A stretch of DNA of 64,000 nt, taken from Druceiella hillmani. Taxonomy: Eukaryota > Arthropoda > Insecta > Lepidoptera > Hepialidae. This document shows positions 3,541 through 63,834 of the stretch, one piece after another; within the stretch, counting starts at the first letter, position 1; every line of letters starts with the position of its first letter. Made by a program: the position numbers and the translations under genes. The notes under the pieces were generated by a model that saw only the letters and a list, made by a program, of their open reading frames with translations, ran no database searches and was not told the DNA's origin. The stretch spans positions 3,286,501 to 3,350,500 of the forward strand of contig JAYKKI010000088.1 of NCBI GenBank assembly GCA_039881145.1, read 5' to 3'.

Positions 3541-4035
3541 ATAAACGTTCAAATGTCATTCCAAATACTTCAAACCTTCATGACTATACTAATCACACCT
3601 TTGTCTCATTTATTTCTTTACATATAACGTTCCTTTCCCTCTATATATTAAAATATTTATTATCACGTTTTTCTGGTCACCATTGACCAATGAAATATAC
3701 TTATATCATATAAACATACAAATGTCTCTCCAAATACTTCAAACTTTTTCCGACTATACTAGTTACACCTTTGTCTCATTTATTTCTTTACATATAACGT
3801 TCCTTTCCCTCCATATATTAAAATATTTATAATCACGTTTTTCTGGTCACCATTGACCAATGAAATATACGTATATCATATAAACGTACAAATGTCTCTC
3901 CAAATACGTCAAACCTTTTACGACGATACTAGTTGCACCTTTGCTTCATTTATTTCTTTACATATAACGTTCCTTTCCCTCTATATATTATAATATTTAT
4001 AATAAATTTTTTCTGGTCACCGTTTTAAATATAAA
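3541..4035. repeat. 170-bp tandem repeat, three copies
   Basis: Copies start at about 3541, 3710 and 3880, marked by 'ataaac', 'aaatgtc', 'tcatttatttctttacat' and 'tttttctggtcacc'. The last copy is the most diverged and stops within the closing 'ttctggtcacc' block. Immediately followed by an unrelated 162-bp array. Confidence 0.93.
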
Positions 4036-16680: not shown

Positions 16681-17041
16681 ATATTTAATTATTTGTTAAG
16701 ATTTATAATATTTTTTTTATCTTCATTCGACTATGATAGATTATAAATATAACAATGGCATATATCATTCAATCTAGATGCAGTTAGAGTTATAATTATA
16801 TTTTTATAATTAATTAAATTGAGACGTGATACTTTAATGTACATATTAATGTGACTTATGATTGCGTGAGCAATTCTTTCCAGTTAATTATATTATAAAA
16901 TATCTCAATAATAATAAAATTTAATAATGCTAAACTTCTAAAGAATATACAAAACCAATATTTGAACGGATTAAAAAAATATAAATAAAAAAGTATGCAT
17001 ACAAATATTGAAAGACTGTCATAAAGAAGCATTTACTAAAG

Positions 17042-17144
17042 CTTTCTCTGTTTAAGCAATAAAATTTGGAGTCCATCCGATTCTGAGATGCGAGTTCGTG
17101 GTTTCAGAATCCGATTGACTCCAAAGTTTTGTTGACAGAGAAAG
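17042..17144. repeat. Long hairpin (about 41-bp arms, 17-nt loop)
   Basis: Left arm 17042-17086 and right arm 17104-17144 pair from 'ctttctctgt'/'acagagaaag' at the base to 'attctga'/'tcagaat' at the loop, with a small asymmetric bulge in the left arm (about 4 extra nt) and a few mismatches. 'ttggagtc'/'gactccaa' pairs exactly in the middle. The loop is 'gatgcgagttcgtggtt'. This could be a small fold-back element or a pre-miRNA/hairpin-RNA-like structure; no flanking repeat or direct duplication is evident. Confidence 0.8.
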
Positions 17145-17496
17145 ACTTTTCATAGAAATAAGTTAAGTAGTTGGAAAAGGGAAACTTTTCAAATCTACGC
17201 TTTGATCTATACCAAGAAGAGCCCAGTAGTTAAAAATATTAAATATATACAGAGGGTGTCAATTAAGCCCATTAATTTCATCCATCCCTTAAATTTCGAT
17301 CCAATTTAATTTTTTTAATAACACAGGACGCACCTGTATTCAGAAATATGACCATGTGTTAGAAACAAAAATATACTGTTTACACAGATCTTCGAAGCAA
17401 TCGACTTCTGTAAGACGATCCCCAATAAGATTCTCGGTTCCTGTTCTCCATACAAGCATATGCCTCCACAGTTAAAAAAATATAATAATTGCAAAT
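17145..17496. other. No recognised feature
   Basis: Unique AT-rich spacer between the hairpin and the ribozyme-family element; 'agggtgtcaattaagcccatt' at about 17254 is not linked to any element. Confidence 0.4.
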
Positions 17497-17692
17497 ATTG
17501 AATTTAATTGGCGTTAATTTTGTAAAAATTCATTATTCACAATTAAATGAAACTATTTTATTAATTTTAAACATCTTCATCGTATTACCACCTGAAGATG
17601 TTGTAATACAACGAAACCTAGGTCGTGGTAAAGAAATTAAAGAAAGTAGAAATAATACTACATCACGTAGTTTCATTTAATTGTGAATAATA
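17497..17692 (+). mobile_element. Fold-back element with hammerhead-like motif, copy A
   Basis: Exact 24-bp terminal inverted repeats occur at 17532-17555 ('attattcacaattaaatgaa'...) and 17668-17691. The right arm is complete and carries the ribozyme-like motif at 17587-17629; the left arm is mostly deleted. The outer sequence 'ttggcgttaattttgta' (17507-17524) is the reverse complement of the sequence flanking the right arms of copies C (about 55760) and D (about 63500), so the true element extends beyond the 24-bp repeat. The open frame 17489-17680 is simply this element translated. Likely non-autonomous; relation to Penelope-like elements is inferred only from the ribozyme motif. Confidence 0.75.
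17587..17629 (+). ncRNA. Candidate minimal type I hammerhead ribozyme, copy A
   Basis: Core order matches a hammerhead. Helix I 5' strand ACCAC (17587-17591); CTGAAGA (17592-17598, fits CUGANGA); one extra T; helix II GTTGT/ACAAC around loop 'aat' (17600-17612); GAAA (17613-17616). Helix III is the very short palindromic ACC-TA-GGT (17616-17623). The predicted cleavage site follows C17624 of the GTC triplet, and the helix I 3' strand GTGGT (17625-17629) pairs perfectly. The extra U between A9 and helix II departs from the strict consensus. Minimal type I hammerheads with palindromic helix III act as dimers in Penelope-like elements and retrozymes (family knowledge); activity here is inferred. 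Confidence 0.6.
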
Positions 17693-18159: not shown

Positions 18160-20037
18160 GGCTCTAAGATATTTGAATATCATTAATTTAACTTAATTCA
18201 TTACAACAATGAATTTAACTAAAAAATATTAATATGCAAAATATGAATTTAAAAAACCTGCAGCAAGGCTGATAGGCACAAATCCTCATTAACTAAAAGA
18301 AGCAAGAAATCAGGACTTAATAAAAACCAGCGACATGTATCTTTGTGGGTCTTTTTGAATACCATAGTGTACAAAATTAGCGACAGAATATGCAACGAAA
18401 AAAACATTATTTGATTTGTTTTACATAGTAAACAAAAAACATCTTCATCGCATTACCGAAAAAAGGATTACTGTATGAAATATTACCGAAAAAAGGATTA
18501 TTGTATGAATATACATTATATAAAATATTTTGTTCAACATTCATATTGAAGTAACGTAGTAAATCTGTCCTTAAGTCTGTGAGCTCAAAAAAACCTTACA
18601 TGGGAATGGAAAAATATTTTCTAAAATTCTTACGTATTTTTTTTGTGGTTGCTTATTTAACCTACAGGCTATTATAATTTCTACTAGCAGAGCTTCACTC
18701 TATCTAAAATACTTATCAGTAGAAAAGTTTTATATCGCTTTAGTTACAACTAAAAAATTAAATATATGAAATGTTAATACGTTTGTGTGTGAAAGAACAA
18801 ATTTTGACAAGCTAAATTAATTTAAAAATTACGGACTACTAATTACTTTAATAATTAATGGTTATTAATATTTAATTTCATACACCTTATTCATTAATAA
18901 GGACATGAAAATTTAAATAAGATCAAGAATTGCTGAAGAATGCTTTACGAAACCTGGTGAAACTGGTGACTAAAACTTAATTTGATAAGGATTAAGACAG
19001 TTTTGCAAAATAAGCATTAGAAAATTTAGTTCAAAGATTATGTTTTTTAGACAATAAAATATTTTTATTGAATTGATTTTATATGAAACATATACAGAAG
19101 CTGTCATGTACTTTATTGAAAATCTTTTTCAGAATACTTTGTTTCCTTGTACGTCTAACAATTTAAGCAGCGCACCTCAATATATATTTCTAATGAGTGT
19201 AATTCATCGACATTAATCATCACAGTTCGGATGATTTTCATAAAATATTAATAAATCATACACTTAAAGTTTTTCATCAATTAGTTTATTCATAAACGAC
19301 AACTGGAACAAAATCCATTCAGATTCATTGAAACAAAATACTGAGAAAATAGCACACGTACAGACAGACGAGGAGAGAAGCTCTATTTTATAATATATGC
19401 TGATAAGTAACATCCATATTTAATTACAATACCGCATGAATGAATAAAATTCGTATCGTACAACATTAATAACGTCATTATGTTTTAAACTGATAAAAAA
19501 TTATGATAAAAGATAACAGAGTTTTAAACGGACACAACTGTATTTTTATGTATCTTACAGAAAACAAACAAAAAACGTGTTAAATGAAAGTTAGCGAAAG
19601 CTCTTAGCATGACGTTGTTCACCGCACCGTTAAGTTTGTGATAAATTTATAAGTAGCGGCGTTGTTCTTGCTCATACTATTGGTTAAATAAGAGCCGGGC
19701 TCTACAGGAAGATTAATTTCAATTAAGATACCATTTAAGAAATTTTTGTCATCTGAAATATTATAAACCGCAAACAGTACACACCAGTCATAAAAGCAGC
19801 TTTTACCTTTTATAGCTTTTGCTATAGCACCTGTCATAAACTTTATAGACTTATTGAGCTATTATTATTTATTAGCATGTACTGATATTGAGGCGAATGT
19901 TTTATAATCTGTTACAGCTTAACATTCGTATACCAAGGATATGGTATTAAGACCAAACAAATTACGGTAGTAGAATAATATTATTAATTATTATTAATTT
20001 TCAAAATATTGTTAATTACTTATCTTTACGCTGATGA

Positions 20038-31751: not shown

Positions 31752-33314
31752 TATGTTTAAATTTTCGTAAATATATAATGTAAATATGCTAAATGTTCAG
31801 GGCGAGCTACGTGTAATTGCTCATAAGGTACTGTGCGCCACTGGTTCTGATACGCAGATCTTGATGTGATTTAAACCATCCTGTACGCTCTTTACAATCC
31901 CTGAAAGTTTCAGTACATCATTACTATAGATCCTCAATTTATGGAATTATGGTAATATTTGTAAAACGTATGCTAACTCTGGTAAGCACGAAGCGCTATG
32001 GACAATATTATATTATAAGAGTGCTAAAATTCAGCATCCAAATTTTTTTGTGAGCAAAGCCGTAGGAAAAACTAACAATGTATTCTTTTTAAATGTACTC
32101 CTTACACCCTTTAATTTGATACCCTACACCTCATACTTCTGTTAAAATTTTGTTTCTTACATTTCACATTATTCAATTTGATGGCAGCCATGTTGCTTTT
32201 TCTATGATCTCATGTAGCCTGTGAAATTCTGTACAGCAAAAAATCTACATCTCTATTAGATCTATCAAAATCTGTTCTGCCTCTCTATTCTTATGAGGGA
32301 ATATATAAACTCGCTTTAAAAACCTACGCACATAATTTCATTCTATCCTCCTTGCACAGCAAGTTTTTATGAATCCTACACATGATACATTTTTTCTACG
32401 CAGTCATGGATCAGTGAAACATTCTTCATCAATTTAAATATTTCAAAATTTCTGTTTTCTATAATATTTCCCGCACACTTTTCTCCATAACGGAGTGAAT
32501 AGTGATGATGGACTGTTACGAATAAGCAAACACACTTTTAATTATTTCTGAATCTAATCCAATAGCATTTCAGTGAACCTTTTTCATATAGCCTAGTGCC
32601 TCTTCTATATTCATAATTTTCTATTAACAGTTGTTGTCCATGTTCACATTTCCTATATTCAAGCCAATTTAATAATACTTCCATCATTTCAAATTAAAAC
32701 CCAATAATTTCGTGATATCTCTCCGTCTGTCCGTATTTCCTTCCATCTGCCACATTCTTGCTGTTTTCGACCAATGTGCACGTAATTTTTAAGTAGATAT
32801 TTTATGTGAACATCTCAATTTACCAAAATACTAAATCGGCCTGATCCATAAACTTGAAGTAGCTCAGCGAGTAGTGGAATGAGCTATGCTTAGATTATTT
32901 CTGTAGAAAAAAGTTCGAAATGAGGAAGTGTGACGGAGAATCTAGATAATCAAAATTAAATGGCTATGAGCAGTTCAAATTTGGCAAAAAACTGATAACT
33001 GATCGAGTAACATGTTCTCGAGTGGACATCACGAACCTCGAAGCACAATACGAGATGCTCCCAAGCCAGATGAACTGACGACTTAAAAAAAGTGGACAAA
33101 AAGTGGCTGTATGCGGAAGGCGGAAGGTGTGTGTGGTGGCGCGCATTGAGAAAAATAAATTGATCCTCCACTACTCGGATGAGTACATAATTAATATTCG
33201 ACATAAGTGGTATCAAAGTTTGCTCATTCATAAACACGTTTTGCTATTCATGTAACAGCAAATACAACTTAAAAATCGGTCAAAAATGAATCCATATATA
33301 TGTGAATCCATGAA
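31752..33314. other. No recognised feature
   Basis: Unique AT-rich sequence. The open frame 32956-33237 (-) covers a slightly GC-richer patch (33000-33180) but shows no known motif. Confidence 0.5.
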
Positions 33315-34865
33315 TGTTTTTATGCATGTGTCCTTTTCACCATATGTCACAATTAAAGAATTTTTTATGCATGTATACTTTTCACCATATGTCACAATTA
33401 AAGAATTTTTTATGCATGTATCCTTCTCACCATATGTCACAATTAAAGAATGTTTTATGCAAGTATCCTTCTCACCATATGTCACAATTAAAGAATTTTT
33501 TATGCATGTATCCTTCTCACCATATGTCACAATTAAAGAATTTTTTATGCAAGTATCCTTCTCACCATATGTCACAATTAAAGAATTTTTTATGCATGTA
33601 TCCTTCTCACCATATGTCACAATTAAAGATTTTTTTATGCATGTATCCTTCTCATCATATGGCACAATTAAAGAAATTTTTTATGCATGTATCCTCACCA
33701 TATGTCACAATTAAAGAATTTTTTATGCATGTATCCTTCTCACCATATGTCACAATTAAAGAATTTTTTATGCATGTATCCTTCTCACCATATGTCACAA
33801 TTAAAGAATTTTTTATGCATGTATCCTTCTCACCATATGTCACAATTAAAGAATTTTTATGCATGTATCCTTCTCACCATATGTCACAATTAAAGAATTT
33901 TTTATGCATGTATCCTTCTCACCATATGACACAAAAAATAATTGTTTATGCATGTATCCTTCTCACCATATGTCACAATTAAAGAATTTTTTATGCATGT
34001 ATTCTTCTCACCATATGTCACAATTAAAGAATTTTTTATGCATGTATCCTTCTCACTATATGTCACAATTAAATAATTTTTCATGCATGTATCCTTCTCA
34101 CCATATGTCACAATTAAAGAATTTTTTATGCATGTATCGTTCTCACCATATGTCACAATTCAATAATTTTTTATGCATGTATCCTTCTCACCATATGTCA
34201 CAATTAAAGAATTTTTTATGCATGTATCCTTCTCACCATATGTCACAATTAAAGAATTTTTTATGCATGTATCCTTCTCACCACATGTCACAATTAAAGA
34301 TTTTTTTATGCAAGTATCCTTCTCACCATATGTCACAATTAAAGAATTTTTTATGCATGTATCCTTCTCACCATATGTCTCAATTAAAGAATTGTTTTTG
34401 CATGTATCCTTCTCATCATATGTCACAATTAAAGAATTTTTTATGCATGTATCCTTCTCACCATATGTCACAATTAAAGAATTTTTTATGCATGTATCCT
34501 TCTCACCATATGTCACAATTAAATAATTTTTATGCATGTATCCTTCTCACCATATGTCACAATTAAAGATTTTTTCATGCATGTATCCTTCTCACCATAT
34601 GTCACAAATAAAGAATTTTTTATGCATGTATCCTTCTCACTATATGTCACAATTAAAGAATTTTTTATGCATGTATCCTTCTCACCATATGTCACAATTA
34701 CAGAATTGTTTATGCATGTATCCTTTTCACCATATGTCACAATTAAAGAATTGTTTATGCATGTATCCTTTTCACCATATGTCACAATTAAAGAATTGTT
34801 TATGCATGCGTCCTTCTCACCATATGACACAATTAAAGAATTTTTTATGCATGTGTCCTTCTCAT
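33315..34865. repeat. 45-bp minisatellite, about 34 copies
   Basis: The unit is about 'atgcatgtatccttctcacc' + 'atatgtcacaattaaagaa' + a T run, with an exact 45-bp spacing for most of its length (33322, 33367, 33412, 33457 and so on). Variants: 'caagtatcc' for 'catgtatcc', 'aaataat' for 'aaagaat', and one-base T-run changes. Since 45 is divisible by three and the unit lacks stops in two plus frames and one minus frame, long frames run through it (33314-33982, 33859-34566 and others), broken only where the T run changes length. These are repeat artefacts and not proteins. Confidence 0.99.
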
Positions 34866-42729: not shown

Positions 42730-43389
42730 AGCAACTTTCTACGTCATTAATTTTTTGGGTGTTCCTTCACAAATATAACATCTAGCAGATGATGTTCCAC
42801 ATAAAGCACTGCAAATTTTACCATAGTTAGTTACAAAGAATGCTAGATGTTGAAAACATATTCGTCCAATGTGAATGTTGTCGAGCACAAAGAAGCTATC
42901 TTTTCTTCAAAATAAAATTCATCATTCTTAGATACGATAGAACTTTCCTTCATAAATTGGAAACGAATAAGTCTACAGTATCTTATAGAAGACGTGCGGG
43001 GATTTTTCCATAAAACGTTGACTTTATTACCTGAATTTGTTACTAACTGCAAAGGAACGTAAAAAGTTACAAATAAACTACAGTCATCATCTAAACTAAA
43101 ATCCACGATAGACTGTTTGTACTCGCTATGACCCATACTACCTTCAAGACTCCATCTCCCAATTAAAGTTAAATTAACTGACTCTCCTAGAATACTATTT
43201 AAAACAGTTTTCTCCGACTCTACGATCCGCGAAGCTGTGTGATCTAACAAAATTTGCAACTTGATCTCCGCTTTTGATTCCATCAGTAGCATATTGCTAG
43301 AATAGCATTTTTTCTTAAACAGCAAAAAACTTTGATAAAACTTCACTAGAAGTCTTAATATTAACAAAATTCTTTATTAACAAATATAC

Positions 43390-47699: not shown

Positions 47700-47827
47700 T
47701 TGCGTTTTTGAGTATATTACATGGGTGCACCCATGTATCGGCTATTAGTGAATTTATATGACAATAGTTTGAGCAATCTTCGATGAGTTAACGTAGTAAT
47801 TCCATCAAACATATTAAACATATTTTA

Positions 47828-49404
47828 GAGTTACAATATTTCATTGAAATTAACAGAAGTAGAAATTAACAGAAGCAGTTCCTTGTTGGACGGAAAGTGT
47901 TTAGCGTCGAATACAGACATTCGAATACAGACGTCGAATACAGACATTCGAATACAGACGTCGAATACAGACATCGAATACAGACGTCGAATACAGACAT
48001 TTTAGAGTTAAAATATTTCATTGAAATTAACAGAAGTAGAAATTAACAGAAGCAGTTCCTTGTTGGACGGAAAGTGTTTAGCGTCGAATACAGACATTCG
48101 AATACAGACGTCGAATACAGACATCGAATACAGACGTCGAATACAGACATCGAATACAGACGTCTAATACAGACATTCAAATACAGACGTCGAATACAGA
48201 CATTCGAATACAGACCTCTAATACAGACATTCGAATACAGACGTCGAATACAGACATTCGAATACAGACCTCTAATACAGACATCGAATACAGACGTCGA
48301 ATACAGACATTTTAGAGTTAAAATATTTCATTGAAATTAACAGCAGTAGAAATTAACAGAAGCAGTTCCTTGTTGGACGGAAAGTGTTTAGCGTCGAATA
48401 CAGACATTCGAATACAGACGTCGAATACAGACATTCGAATACAGACGTCGAATACAGACATCGAATACAGACGTCTAATACAGACATTCGAATACAGACG
48501 TCGAATACAGACATTCGAATACAGACGTCGAATACAGACATTCGAATACAGACGTCGAATACAGACATTTTAGAGTTAAAATATTTCATTGAAATTAACA
48601 GCAGTAGAAATTAACAGAAACAGTTCCTTGTTGGACGGAAAGTGTTTAGCGTCGAATACAGACATTCGAATACAGACGTCGAATACAGACATTCGAATAC
48701 AGACGTCGAATACAGACATCGAATACAGACGTCTAATACAGACATTCGAATACAGACGTCGAATACAGACATTCGAATACAGACCTCTAATACAGACATC
48801 GAATACAGACGTCGAATACAGACATTTTAGAGTTAAAATATTTCATTGAAATTAACAGCAGTAGAAATTAACAGAAACAGTTCCTTGTTGGACGGAAAGT
48901 GTTTAGCGTCGAATACAGACATTCGAATACAGACGTCGAATACAGACATTCGAATACAGACGTCGAATACAGACATCGAATACAGACGTCTAATACAGAC
49001 ATTCGAATACAGACGTCGAATACAGACATTCGAATACAGACCTCTAATACAGACATCGAATACAGACGTCGAATACAGACATTTTAGAGTTAAAATATTT
49101 CATTGAAATTAACAGCAGTAGAAATTAACAGAAACAGTTCCTTGTTGGACGGAAAGTGTTTAGCGTCGAATACAGACGTCGAATACAGACGTCGAATACA
49201 GACATTTTAGAGTTAAAATATTTCATTAAAATTAACAGAAGTAGTTCCGTGTTGGACGGAAAGTGTTTAGCGTCGAATACAGTAGTTCCGTGTTGGACGG
49301 AAAGTGTTTAGCGTTGAATACAGTAGTTCCGTGTTGGACGGAAAGTGTTTAGCGTCGAATACAGTAGTTCCGTGTTGGACGGAAAGTGTTTTAGCGTCGA
49401 ATAC
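47828..49404. repeat. Three-level nested satellite
   Basis: Level 1: 12-14-bp units 'gaatacagac(g/a)tc' and 'gaatacagacattc', strung in varying order. Level 2: blocks of these separated by a constant module ('ttttagagttaaaatatttc' + 'attgaaattaacag' + 'gttccttgttggacgg' + 'aaagtgtttagcgtc'). The 'gagtta' mark falls at 47828, 48005, 48315, 48573, 48830, 49087 and 49210, giving blocks of 177, 310, 258, 257, 257 and 123 bp. Level 3: at the right end a 41-bp piece of the module ('gtagttccgtgttggacgga'...) is itself tandemly repeated four times (49241, 49282, 49323, 49364). Open frames through it (48074-49106, both strands) are artefacts. Confidence 0.98.
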
Positions 49405-49482
49405 AGACATTCCAATACGTGAGTGAAGAGACAAATGATGAACAATAGAATATAAGTGTAATGCTGCTATACTTAATTTCGT

Positions 49483-49746: not shown

Positions 49747-49806
49747 ATGTAATTAACAATTGTGTTAAAACAATACGTTTAAAATAATTTTAATTTTTTC
49801 TTAATT

Positions 49807-50045
49807 ATTATTAACAAGTCTATGAAACTACGTGATGTGGTATTATTTCTACTTTATTTAAATTCTCTACTACGACCTAGGTTTCATTGTATGACAACAT
49901 CTTGGGGTGGGCTATTTGAAGAGATCTCTTCAAATTGACCACCTGAAGATGTTGTCATACAACGAAACCTAGGTCGTTGTTAAGAATTTAATTAAAGTTG
50001 AAATAATAATACTACATCACGTAATTTCATTTACTTGTTAATAAC
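49807..50045. mobile_element. Fold-back element with hammerhead-like motif, copy B (both arms)
   Basis: Two long inverted arms (about 105 bp each) meet at a perfect 22-bp palindrome (49914-49935, half-site atttgaagaga). Termini are 'ttattaacaagt'/'acttgttaataa'. Both arms contain 'tacgacctaggtttc' or its complement. The right arm carries a good ribozyme-like motif (49938-49980); in the left arm (minus strand) the CTGAAGA box is CCCAAGA and helix I is lost. It is the most complete copy of the family here and shows the head-to-head architecture. Confidence 0.85.
49938..49980 (+). ncRNA. Candidate hammerhead-like motif, copy B
   Basis: ACCAC (49938-49942), CTGAAGA (49943-49949), one extra T, helix II GTTGT-cat-ACAAC (49951-49963), GAAA (49964-49967), helix III ACC-TA-GGT, cleavage triplet GTC ending at 49975, helix I return GTTGT (49976-49980) with one C-T mismatch. 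All core residues needed by the consensus are present; the weakened helix I may reduce activity. Confidence 0.55.
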
Positions 50046-50312
50046 AACTTCACAAATATTCAATAATTTTAATTAATAATTACATTTAAAAACTGTAAAT
50101 AAAATGTCAGTTTATGGTAATTTCTTTATTTTGCATTTTTTAAATAAGTTACTTGATAATTAAGCTTACAAAAAACGAGTGAACTTTGCGTCGGAACACG
50201 CTTGAAGTAAGATTCCGTAGTGATATCTTAAATTTCTGTGATACAAATTAAGCAAAATACTAAAAGCAAAAACTCAAATCAAATGCTAGTGTCAAAATGT
50301 AGAAGAAACAAT
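50046..50312. other. No recognised feature
   Basis: AT-rich spacer between the fold-back and the Helitron. Confidence 0.5.
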
Positions 50313-54910: not shown

Positions 54911-55537
54911 CAAATACCCTTATTCGGTAAGAAATGTTCACTTCAAAAAGAAACAAATATACTTTTTACACAATAGCACAAATAAATTACTAAACAATTT
55001 TTATATCTATATATAAAACGCTGAATGATTCCTAACACATCCGCAAATATCTATTGGATTTTATATAAATCTCACTAAATCAAAATAATATTTTTTTTGT
55101 GTCTAGTCCATGTTATTTTATAACCTCCCTCAAGCTGTTTCTATATTATTACCTAACCACGAGCGCAACTCCATACATTCCGCTACGATGCAACACGAGC
55201 GGTCACTTCGTGCATCTCCGCCGGCGCTCGGCCATTTTCGTTTTCCATTTTATATCAGTCTACTAAGCTGACTTGTCTATTTCGGAATATGCAGATTCAT
55301 CTCGGCTAAATCGAAATAGAGATTGATTTACACGATCCGTCAATTAAGTTTACCCACGCGGATGAATCAGCAGAATCCCATGCAGCATCCGCCGAAACGG
55401 GTTGTCGTTGTAAAAGAGTACAACTTAAAAAGTGGCACAGATTAAAGTTTATATATTTGCGGCACATAGATGTTAAAATTGTAGAAATATTACTGAATGT
55501 TGAATTATTATCAAAAATATTAACAGCATTATTTAAA
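54911..55537. other. No gene recognised; CpG-rich patch at 55180-55430
   Basis: The patch holds 'ctccgccggcgctcggccat', 'cacgcggatgaatcagcaga' and 'tccgccgaaacgggttgtcg'. 'atctatatataaaacgctga' at 55005 looks like a Helitron 5' terminus (A|TC...), but no 3' hairpin/CTAG partner was found. Confidence 0.35.
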
Positions 55538-55747
55538 ATTCACAATTAAATGAATGAAACTACGTGATGTAGTATTATTTCTACTTTCTTTAAGTTCTTT
55601 ACCATGACCTAGGTTTCGTTGTATTACAACATTTTCAGGTGGGCTATTAGCAAAGATAGTCACAACTTTGCTAATAGTCCTGAAGATGTTGTTTAAAGAA
55701 AGTAGTAATAATACTACATCACGTAGTTTCATTTAATTGTGAATAAT
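55538..55747. mobile_element. Fold-back element with decayed ribozyme motifs, copy C
   Basis: Ends 'attcacaattaaatga'/'tcatttaattgtgaat'. The left arm is complete; the right arm has lost about 30 bp (tgaagatgttg joined directly to tttaaagaaagtag), which removes the GAAAC and GTC part of its motif. The left-arm motif on the minus strand reads CTGAAAA instead of CTGAAGA (the essential G8 position) with a helix I mismatch, so neither is expected to cleave. The centre is a 12-bp hairpin 'ctattagcaaag'/'ctttgctaatag'. The right flank 'acaaaattaacgccaaatgt' is shared with copy D. The frame 55529-55732 is the translated element. Confidence 0.85.
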
Positions 55748-56934
55748 GCATTTCTACAAAATTAACGCCAAATGTATTCAATATTATTTAAAATGTTAAA
55801 AGCCTTAAAAATTGTTTTTGGAATTTTTTTCCCTTTGGCCGCTTTTTCGTTTGTATATTTTCTTAAAAGAGCGTTAAGAAATTTAAAATTTGTTTCTTTA
55901 TTTACTAACTTAAAATTAGCGAACATCAAAGCTTTCAAATACCTAACAATTATTAGAAAATTCACGTTCAACAAAATTCTGTAATCATATTAAGATATCA
56001 TTTTTGAACGGTGAACTTCCATATTCAATTTTTATAGTTTATAGTAAAATTTCTATTTTAAATAGATATTCCAAAAAAAATTATGGCACACCCATAATTT
56101 TTTTTGGAATTATATCCGCGCGTTAGAAGTTATAATTCTTTGACATAATAAAAGAATAACTTTATTTAGCACGCAAATAAATAATGTATATAAAATAATG
56201 GAAAGACTGGAGCGTGATTATACAAACGGTTGGTAAAATATAAATTCCATCAAATAATTAAATTTGAAATAATTTATAATGTAAATAAATAAAAACTGAA
56301 ACTTAGAGAAATACACATAATATATATACTAAAACGCTTATAAGCACTATTTCTGTCACAATATTTATATATAACATATCAATATTTGTTATTATATAGA
56401 CCACTATTAAATTTAAATTATTAAAAAATATTATTTAAAAGCACAAATATAACTTATATTTGTTTGAATATAAAACACGTCTTGTGTATTTACAAATACC
56501 TCAATAAATATGGTGAATATGTTATAAATCACTACGCACATTTTTAGTGAGGAACTTCATCCTGTCGATTTTTGTTGCATTGTGCGCGTGCATTGTAAAA
56601 TTTCAGTCTCATCATTTTTTCATAATGCGCCTAATGAAGTACAACTTCAAAAATGCGTCATTTATTAATAAATAAATGCAAAATTTACGTTCTCAAAATT
56701 TGCACCAAAACAGAAGATCACCTGGTGTGACGTTACACTGTTAACGTGCAAATACAATACAATTTCTAGTATTAAAGAAAAACACAATAATTGTCACTAA
56801 ATTTTTAGTTGAAGAGGTAATTTATAATAAAATCCTACGAAAGGTGTTCTTCATTCAATGCTTTAAAAAAAATTATAAATTGTTTAAAAAAAATTGATCT
56901 GAACTGATTGTTACTCACTAATTTGGATGTTACT
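55748..56934. other. No gene recognised; open on both strands at 55762-55984
   Basis: A 70-codon frame is open on each strand over the same 220 bp; neither has a recognised motif. 'ccaaaaaaaattatggcaca'/'ataattttttttggaatta' (about 56070-56113) is a short inverted repeat. Confidence 0.4.
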
Positions 56935-62495: not shown

Positions 62496-62598
62496 GAGAA
62501 ATCATCAACCTAGGTCATTGCTAGAAGAGCTTGAAAGCTAAAAGCTCTTGCAAAAGCTTTTAGCTCTCCTGGAAATGACCTAGTTTTGATAATTTCTC
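62496..62598. repeat. Fold-back / hairpin, about 45-bp imperfect arms
   Basis: Outer 'gagaaatcatca'/'tgataatttctc', next 'ctaggtcatt'/'aatgacctag' (10 of 10), inner 'gctaaaagct' (62537-62546)/'agcttttagc' (62555-62564, 10 of 10). It contains 'acctaggtca', recalling the fold-back family, but the CTGAAGA and GAAAC boxes are absent. Confidence 0.8.
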
Positions 62599-63370: not shown

Positions 63371-63484
63371 TTGCTAACAGCCCACCTGAAGATGTAGTAA
63401 TACAACGAAACCTGGGTCGTGGTAAAGGACTTAAAGAAAGTAGAAATAATACATCACGTAGTTTCATTTAATTGTGAATAATGA
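63371..63484 (+). mobile_element. Fold-back family, copy D (right arm only)
   Basis: Right arm from 'tttgctaacagcccacctga' through 'gtttcatttaattgtgaata', then the conserved flank 'tttctacaaaattaacgcca' (63485-63510). The left arm is missing. Some point changes ('cctgggtc' for 'cctaggtc'). Confidence 0.85.
63382..63422 (+). ncRNA. Candidate hammerhead-like motif, copy D
   Basis: CCAC (63382-63385), CTGAAGA (63386-63392), one extra T, helix II GTAGT/ACAAC (one mismatch), GAAA (63407-63410), helix III ACC-TG-GGT, GTC ending at 63418, helix I return GTGG (63419-63422) fully paired. The core is intact; helix II is weakened. Confidence 0.5.
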
Positions 63485-63834
63485 ATTTCTACAAAATTAA
63501 CGCCAAATATATTCAATAAATGTTTATAAATATAGGAAACTTTTTATCTGGATATTACAGACTAAAAAAACTACTGACTTAATATATATTACGATATTGG
63601 TACTGCCAGTGACATCTATTAGCGTTTTAAATATTCTTTATGCTTGTAGAATATTGAGAAAAAAAATTAAAACAGCAAAAAACACTAAAAAATTCCTAAT
63701 AACTCTTCTTTTTCCGAATTCTACTCGATCCAACAAATGTAAAATCACTTATCGGAAAAATGAAAAATTTATTGCAACATAATATTAAATTTACCCGCTT
63801 TAATTCGCCCGCTATATATACTATTATCTCTCTA
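63485..63834. other. Conserved flank then no recognised feature
   Basis: The first about 30 bp are shared with the flanks of copies A and C; the rest is unique. The frame 63597-63782 (+) has no motif. Confidence 0.4.

Follow-up and report, generated by a model that had tools for sequence, protein, structure and literature searches.

Minimal type I hammerheads of Penelope-like elements were reportedly described by Cervera and de la Pena in 2014 and by Lunse, Weinberg and Breaker in 2017, and the viroid hammerhead of de la Pena and Flores (2001) is said to have an A as its extra core nucleotide, between A9 and helix II. That Penelope-like elements carry minimal type I hammerheads is stated in passages of two reviews (PMC7761336, PMC6155905) and in PMC10085705. 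Animal retrozymes, as outlined in PMC7229834, consist of 150-450 bp units in direct tandem, each unit with its own type I hammerhead. According to PMC11167929, one Penelope-like element inserted in vitro without needing its hammerhead to cleave, and none of the reads ended at the cleavage site, a result that may serve as a caution about hammerhead function.

On the forward strand of the window, which is the whole 64,000-nucleotide stretch of Druceiella hillmani DNA that was analysed, positions 17585-17631 have the layout of a type I hammerhead with all elements in order: TTACCAC-CTGAAGA-T-GTTGT-AAT-ACAAC-GAA-ACCTAGGT-C-GTGGTAA (copy A). The 5' strand of helix I (17585-17591) leads into the CTGAAGA box (17592-17598), an extra U between A9 and helix II (17599), a 5-bp helix II with a 3-nt AAU loop (17600-17604 with 17608-17612), GAA (17613-17615), the helix III palindrome ACCTAGGT (17616-17623), C17 (17624) and the 3' strand of helix I (17625-17631). 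The core sequences CUGANGA, GAAA and NUH and the three helices are all present, helix III only as a dimer palindrome. A sequence-only reading had placed the motif here with its elements in order, a 5-bp helix II and cleavage after C17624; our re-reading bears out the place, the order and helix II, and position 17624 is C17 of the hammerhead layout. Helix I, given there as 5 bp, in fact counts 7 bp (17585-17591 with 17625-17631).

A descriptor that allowed zero or one inserted base, run on both strands of the whole window, matched this locus only. Among 2000 dinucleotide-preserving shuffles of the window, any loose match occurred in 22, a match with 5/3/5 pairs (helix II/III/I) in one and a match with 5/3/7 in none, figures that carry no correction for the motif having been picked from many possible ones. 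With a slightly altered descriptor, 100 earlier shuffles had yielded seven loose loci and one strand at 4/3/5 or better.

A covariance-model search had been proposed as a check. A model built for the purpose would have given a circular E-value, its comparators having been picked for letters in common with the candidate, and the Rfam models were used instead. Hammerhead_1 (RF00163) was the top of six Rfam matches in a 131-base search and aligned end to end (model positions 1-45 on 17586-17630), at 19.0 bits (E = 0.021) against a gathering score of 34; the gathering score was reached nowhere in the window, and an Rfam search of 2.2 kb with E up to 10 had no hammerhead among its matches. As a yardstick, a clear hammerhead without the extra base from a bacterial contig (L346) scored 23.4 bits with RF00163, also under the gathering score, and 30.5 bits with RAGATH-1-hammerhead (gathering score 56.3). 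An extra-U sequence from a viral contig (L251) had no RF00163 match and only a misplaced Hammerhead_II match at 17.1 bits. No hammerhead was reported by Rfam for comparators L022, L080 and L160 at E up to 0.1, or for L326, L355, L251, L275, L311 and L261 at E up to 1. Because these hammerhead-like loci also gave none, the wide Rfam negatives at our locus weigh little. Minimal or extra-base hammerheads appear to be easily missed, as the few tried fell below the Rfam threshold or went unmatched.

The extra U had been noticed as common to the copies, and it is present in all five complete arms of the element described below. It had also been regarded as an oddity, which it is not. We searched a sample of viral contigs (88 stretches) and prokaryote genomes (68 stretches) with the pattern CACCTGANGA, gap, CGAAAC, gap, GTCGTG, which leaves the start of helix II free and shares letters with the candidate. 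There were 164 distinct matching sequences, of which we kept the 90 whose helix II and helix III reached 4 bp and 3 bp or more, respectively, and dropped 74; the 90 are distinct sequences and not independent lineages. Helix II started directly in 47 of these hammerhead-like sequences, one base late in 43 and two bases late in none. The extra base was U in 36 of the 43, G in four and A in three, and one of the 43 (L349) is a likely chance match. In earlier scans, whose pattern itself required the extra base, a helix II of 4 bp or more was formed by 6 of the 120 matches listed and by 9 of 116. In these viral and prokaryote contigs (L022, L080, L237-L390), forms with one extra base were as common as plain ones (43 vs 47). 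Whether or not our motif cleaves, hammerhead-like sequences of this kind are common in the sampled phage and prokaryote contigs. The viroid hammerhead of de la Pena and Flores 2001, cited in PMC4918200, is alike in having one extra catalytic-core nucleotide and differs in its carrier.

The motif forms part of one arm of a palindromic element, whose length when complete is 244-254 bp. Copy A has lost most of its left arm and kept its 24-nt perfect inverted repeats (left 17532-17555, right 17668-17691, forward strand). Within the window there are four complete arms outside A, at three loci, as well as truncated arms. Copy B (55530-55785, reverse strand) has one full arm, with the motif at 55606-55638 (-), and a mirror arm with an internal deletion. 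Copy C (63382-63487, forward strand) is a single arm with the motif at 63386-63418 (+), and its mirror arm was not found. Copy D (49802-50047) is a complete palindrome with two motifs head to head, at 49874-49906 (-) and 49943-49975 (+). An extra 30-40 nt on one side, ending near ATTCAAT, is common to A, B and C; the lengths from the repeat start to that end are 191 (A), 244 (B), 152 (C) and 254 (D). A further 21 nt at 18437-18457 match 17569-17589 of copy A at 20 of 21 bases, lack a hammerhead and are perhaps a fragment of another copy.

In a search for relatives of the repeat, no stretch of the viral contigs matched the motif, inverted-repeat or core-plus-palindrome patterns, and no stretch of the prokaryote genomes matched the motif pattern. 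When the window was searched for Penelope remains, one comparator protein reached a best E of 0.30 by tblastn, the translations around the four loci contained no reverse transcriptase when read by eye, Pfam gave nothing above cut-off on four open reading frames, and no tRNA genes were found.

Candidate target-site duplications match at 12 of 13 bases in A, 12 of 12 in B and 13 of 13 in D, where they lie about 16 nt outside the repeat start; copy C has none. Of 3000 random window pairs, 150 (A), 126 (B), 116 (D) and 2861 (C) matched as well, and each candidate is only suggestive. Together with the one-arm copy C, the duplications lean towards retroposition rather than a DNA-transposon MITE, and the family may have spread in that way. 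A MITE, moved by cut and paste with a transposase supplied in trans and with the hammerhead captured or incidental, would account for the long inverted repeats, the small size and the lack of coding capacity, and we hold it to be a real possibility at somewhat less than even odds. It fits less well with candidate duplications of 12-13 bp that vary in length and are found in three of four copies (even though about 4-5% of random pairs match each, and that of D lies outside the repeat start), with the one-sided extension in A, B and C, or with the existence of a one-arm copy.

The window holds other repeats. By eye, another fold-back repeat lies at 17037-17150, with a long inverted repeat around a short loop, and its inner part has only a weak match to a miRNA model. 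An imperfect palindrome at 62510-62585, also seen by eye, is rich in AGCTCTT/AAGAGCT-like pieces and is bounded by CCTAGGTCATT and AATGACCTAG. A 45-bp tandem repeat of about 35 copies occupies 33312-34864, with open reading frames of 128-238 aa running through both strands, and nested tandem repeats with units of 13, 27, 41, 177 and 257 bp occupy 47822-49406, ending about 400 bp from copy D. A 176-aa open frame at 42843-43373 (-) has a protein-like reading and no Pfam match.

We compared the state of the hammerhead across the five complete arms. The core is intact in three (A, C and one D arm); in B, G8 has changed to A, and in the other D arm U4 and G5 have both changed to C. Helix II is fully paired (5 pairs) in every arm except that of C, which has a single A-A mismatch; one of the four fully paired arms contains a G-U. 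By eye, helix I opens with a run of 7 pairs in A, of 4 in C and of 2 in each D arm; B lacks the first pair and forms the following three. At least four opening pairs are found in two of the five arms. The earlier view that the copies largely keep their pairing and core boxes holds only in part, given the changed cores of B and of one D arm and the start of helix I in B and D. Changed cells made up 3 of 60 in the core and 52 of 511 elsewhere in the five arms (Fisher p = 0.25). The core change rate lies in the direction of conservation and the difference is not significant; five arms are too few to show that core boxes are better kept than their neighbours. The five arms amount to one observation because they go back to a single shared ancestor.

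In the predicted folds, the hammerhead competes poorly with its surroundings. Forcing the hammerhead in copy A cost 0.8 kcal/mol in 47 nt, the margin by which a single 47-mer prefers a non-hammerhead fold, 3.7 kcal/mol in 76 nt, and 6.1 kcal/mol in 112, 170 and 451 nt, with 6.1 kcal/mol also the cost in the whole element. The neighbouring sequence out-competes it in context: AACATCTTCA at 17570-17579 (+), a perfect complement of the core region 17593-17602, pairs with the core in the computed fold. Copy D folds as a single long hairpin on both strands, with its arms paired and the whole motif arm taken up in mirror pairing. In copy B the core box pairs with the mirror arm and the remaining motif is partly looped out, and the predicted fold of copy C is not a hammerhead. 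By its geometry, a complete palindrome places the antisense arm first on either strand, which would therefore be at hand to trap the ribozyme, and the fold-back arrangement would hold it within a long hairpin. Most copies in the window are probably inactive in cis, and copy A is the best candidate for residual activity.

The suggestion that the palindromic helix III suits a dimer is supported by folding. Two 47-nt copies of A, folded without constraint, form a double hammerhead with open cores, a joint 8-bp helix III and a joint helix I, at -31.0 kcal/mol vs -10.7 kcal/mol for a single copy; pair probabilities were 0.57-0.68 in helix III and, for those pairs of helix I that were looked at, 0.74-0.97. 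The free double-hammerhead fold was absent for A in 76 or 112 nt, for B, C and both D arms, and for comparator L355. Within the element, completion of the reduced helix III in the dimer, which marks a minimal dimeric hammerhead, was thus found for the 47-nt A only.

Two comparators also have palindromic helix III strands. One (L326) has ACCGGT, one extra A and a 6-bp helix I, with the same free dimer fold as A. The other (L355) has ACTAGT, no extra base and a 3-bp helix I, and its motif (3855-3894, reverse strand) lies upstream of two long open reading frames on the same strand. One of these, of 867 aa, has no Pfam match itself; it has 550 relatives, and among the best 120 of the 550 many carry a precomputed RVT_1. 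RVT_1 was found in two of three relatives scanned and nothing in the third. We read this frame as putatively Penelope-like and suspect that both contigs, filed as bacterial, are of eukaryotic origin. The L355 contig is assigned to a Planctomycetaceae MAG, a bacterial bin that may have taken in eukaryotic DNA.

Taken together, we favour, at a probability of roughly 0.55, a minimal type I hammerhead, small and dimer-acting in kind and now a relic, within a family of mobile elements that are palindromic, rich in AT, non-coding, about 250 bp long when complete and perhaps retroposed. An ancestral copy would have acted as a dimer through a joint helix III and cut its own RNA after C17 (17624 in A), and the cores and helix I would have decayed afterwards. 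The minimal dimeric hammerhead proposed on the sequence-only reading thus holds for its design, its dimer-suited helix III and its Penelope likeness, whereas the competing folds give no support to likely activity in place. A competing reading, though an unlikely one, is that a hammerhead-like string arose by chance in one ancestral repeat and was copied passively without ever cleaving. That would fit five arms that count once, a core not significantly better conserved than its surroundings, loose matches in 22 of 2000 shuffled windows for a motif chosen from many, and an element whose own hairpin buries the motif. It sits less easily with the absence of any equally good match in the 2000 shuffled windows, with an extra U placed where other hammerhead-like sequences carry one, and with a helix III palindrome that yields a dimer fold.

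It is improbable, in our judgement, that some copies, chiefly A, cut their transcripts as dimers today, a reaction that would process or circularise the RNA of the element in the manner of animal retrozymes. Copy A does have an intact core, a 7-bp helix I, a 5-bp helix II and a 47-mer dimer that folds as a double hammerhead, and PMC7229834 describes animal retrozymes as short, low in GC and self-paired and gives their duplications as longer than 4 bp. However, the core of A is paired with 17570-17579 in context, direct tandem units of the element, the arrangement of animal retrozymes in the same account, were not seen in the window, and the Penelope-like element of PMC11167929 inserted in vitro without needing cleavage. 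A more elaborate scheme, which we consider very improbable, is a hairpin retroposon that combines a dimer-acting hammerhead with an antisense lock in the mirror arm; its RNA would stay whole while folded back, and cutting would require either the pairing of two copies or the loss of the lock arm, a loss seen in A and C. Should the motif prove to cleave, a short palindromic element would be added to the carriers known for minimal dimeric hammerheads, and it could be asked how such a ribozyme persists within a fold-back of its own sequence.

The likeness to the minimal hammerheads of Penelope-like elements, claimed from sequence alone, stands: going by the relevant passages of the reviews (PMC7761336, PMC6155905), both are type I with a reduced helix III, a dimer-suited design and no obvious loop-loop contacts. 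Unlike the Penelope-like cases in those passages, the copies here have no Penelope coding sequence found near them, their arms are inverted and not tandem, and the helix III strand is an 8-nt palindrome. The palindromic stem III hammerhead of Aedes aegypti, as presented in part of PMC3088659, is alike in that helix III could pair fully in a dimer; it has a repeat-type arrangement, whereas ours is a fold-back element. A hammerhead in such a palindromic transposon-like element was described by none of the literature matches listed, at the level of detail they give, which is no proof of absence. Animal non-LTR retrozymes, in the portion of PMC7229834 that concerns them, share with our element a short length, low GC, strongly self-paired RNA, a type I hammerhead and longer duplications when present. 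They are direct tandems with full hammerheads, whereas the copies in the window are single, dispersed palindromes with inverted arms and a minimal hammerhead. A demonstrated member of neither group, this most likely relic hammerhead in a short hairpin element resembles Penelope-associated hammerheads in design and animal retrozymes in size and composition.
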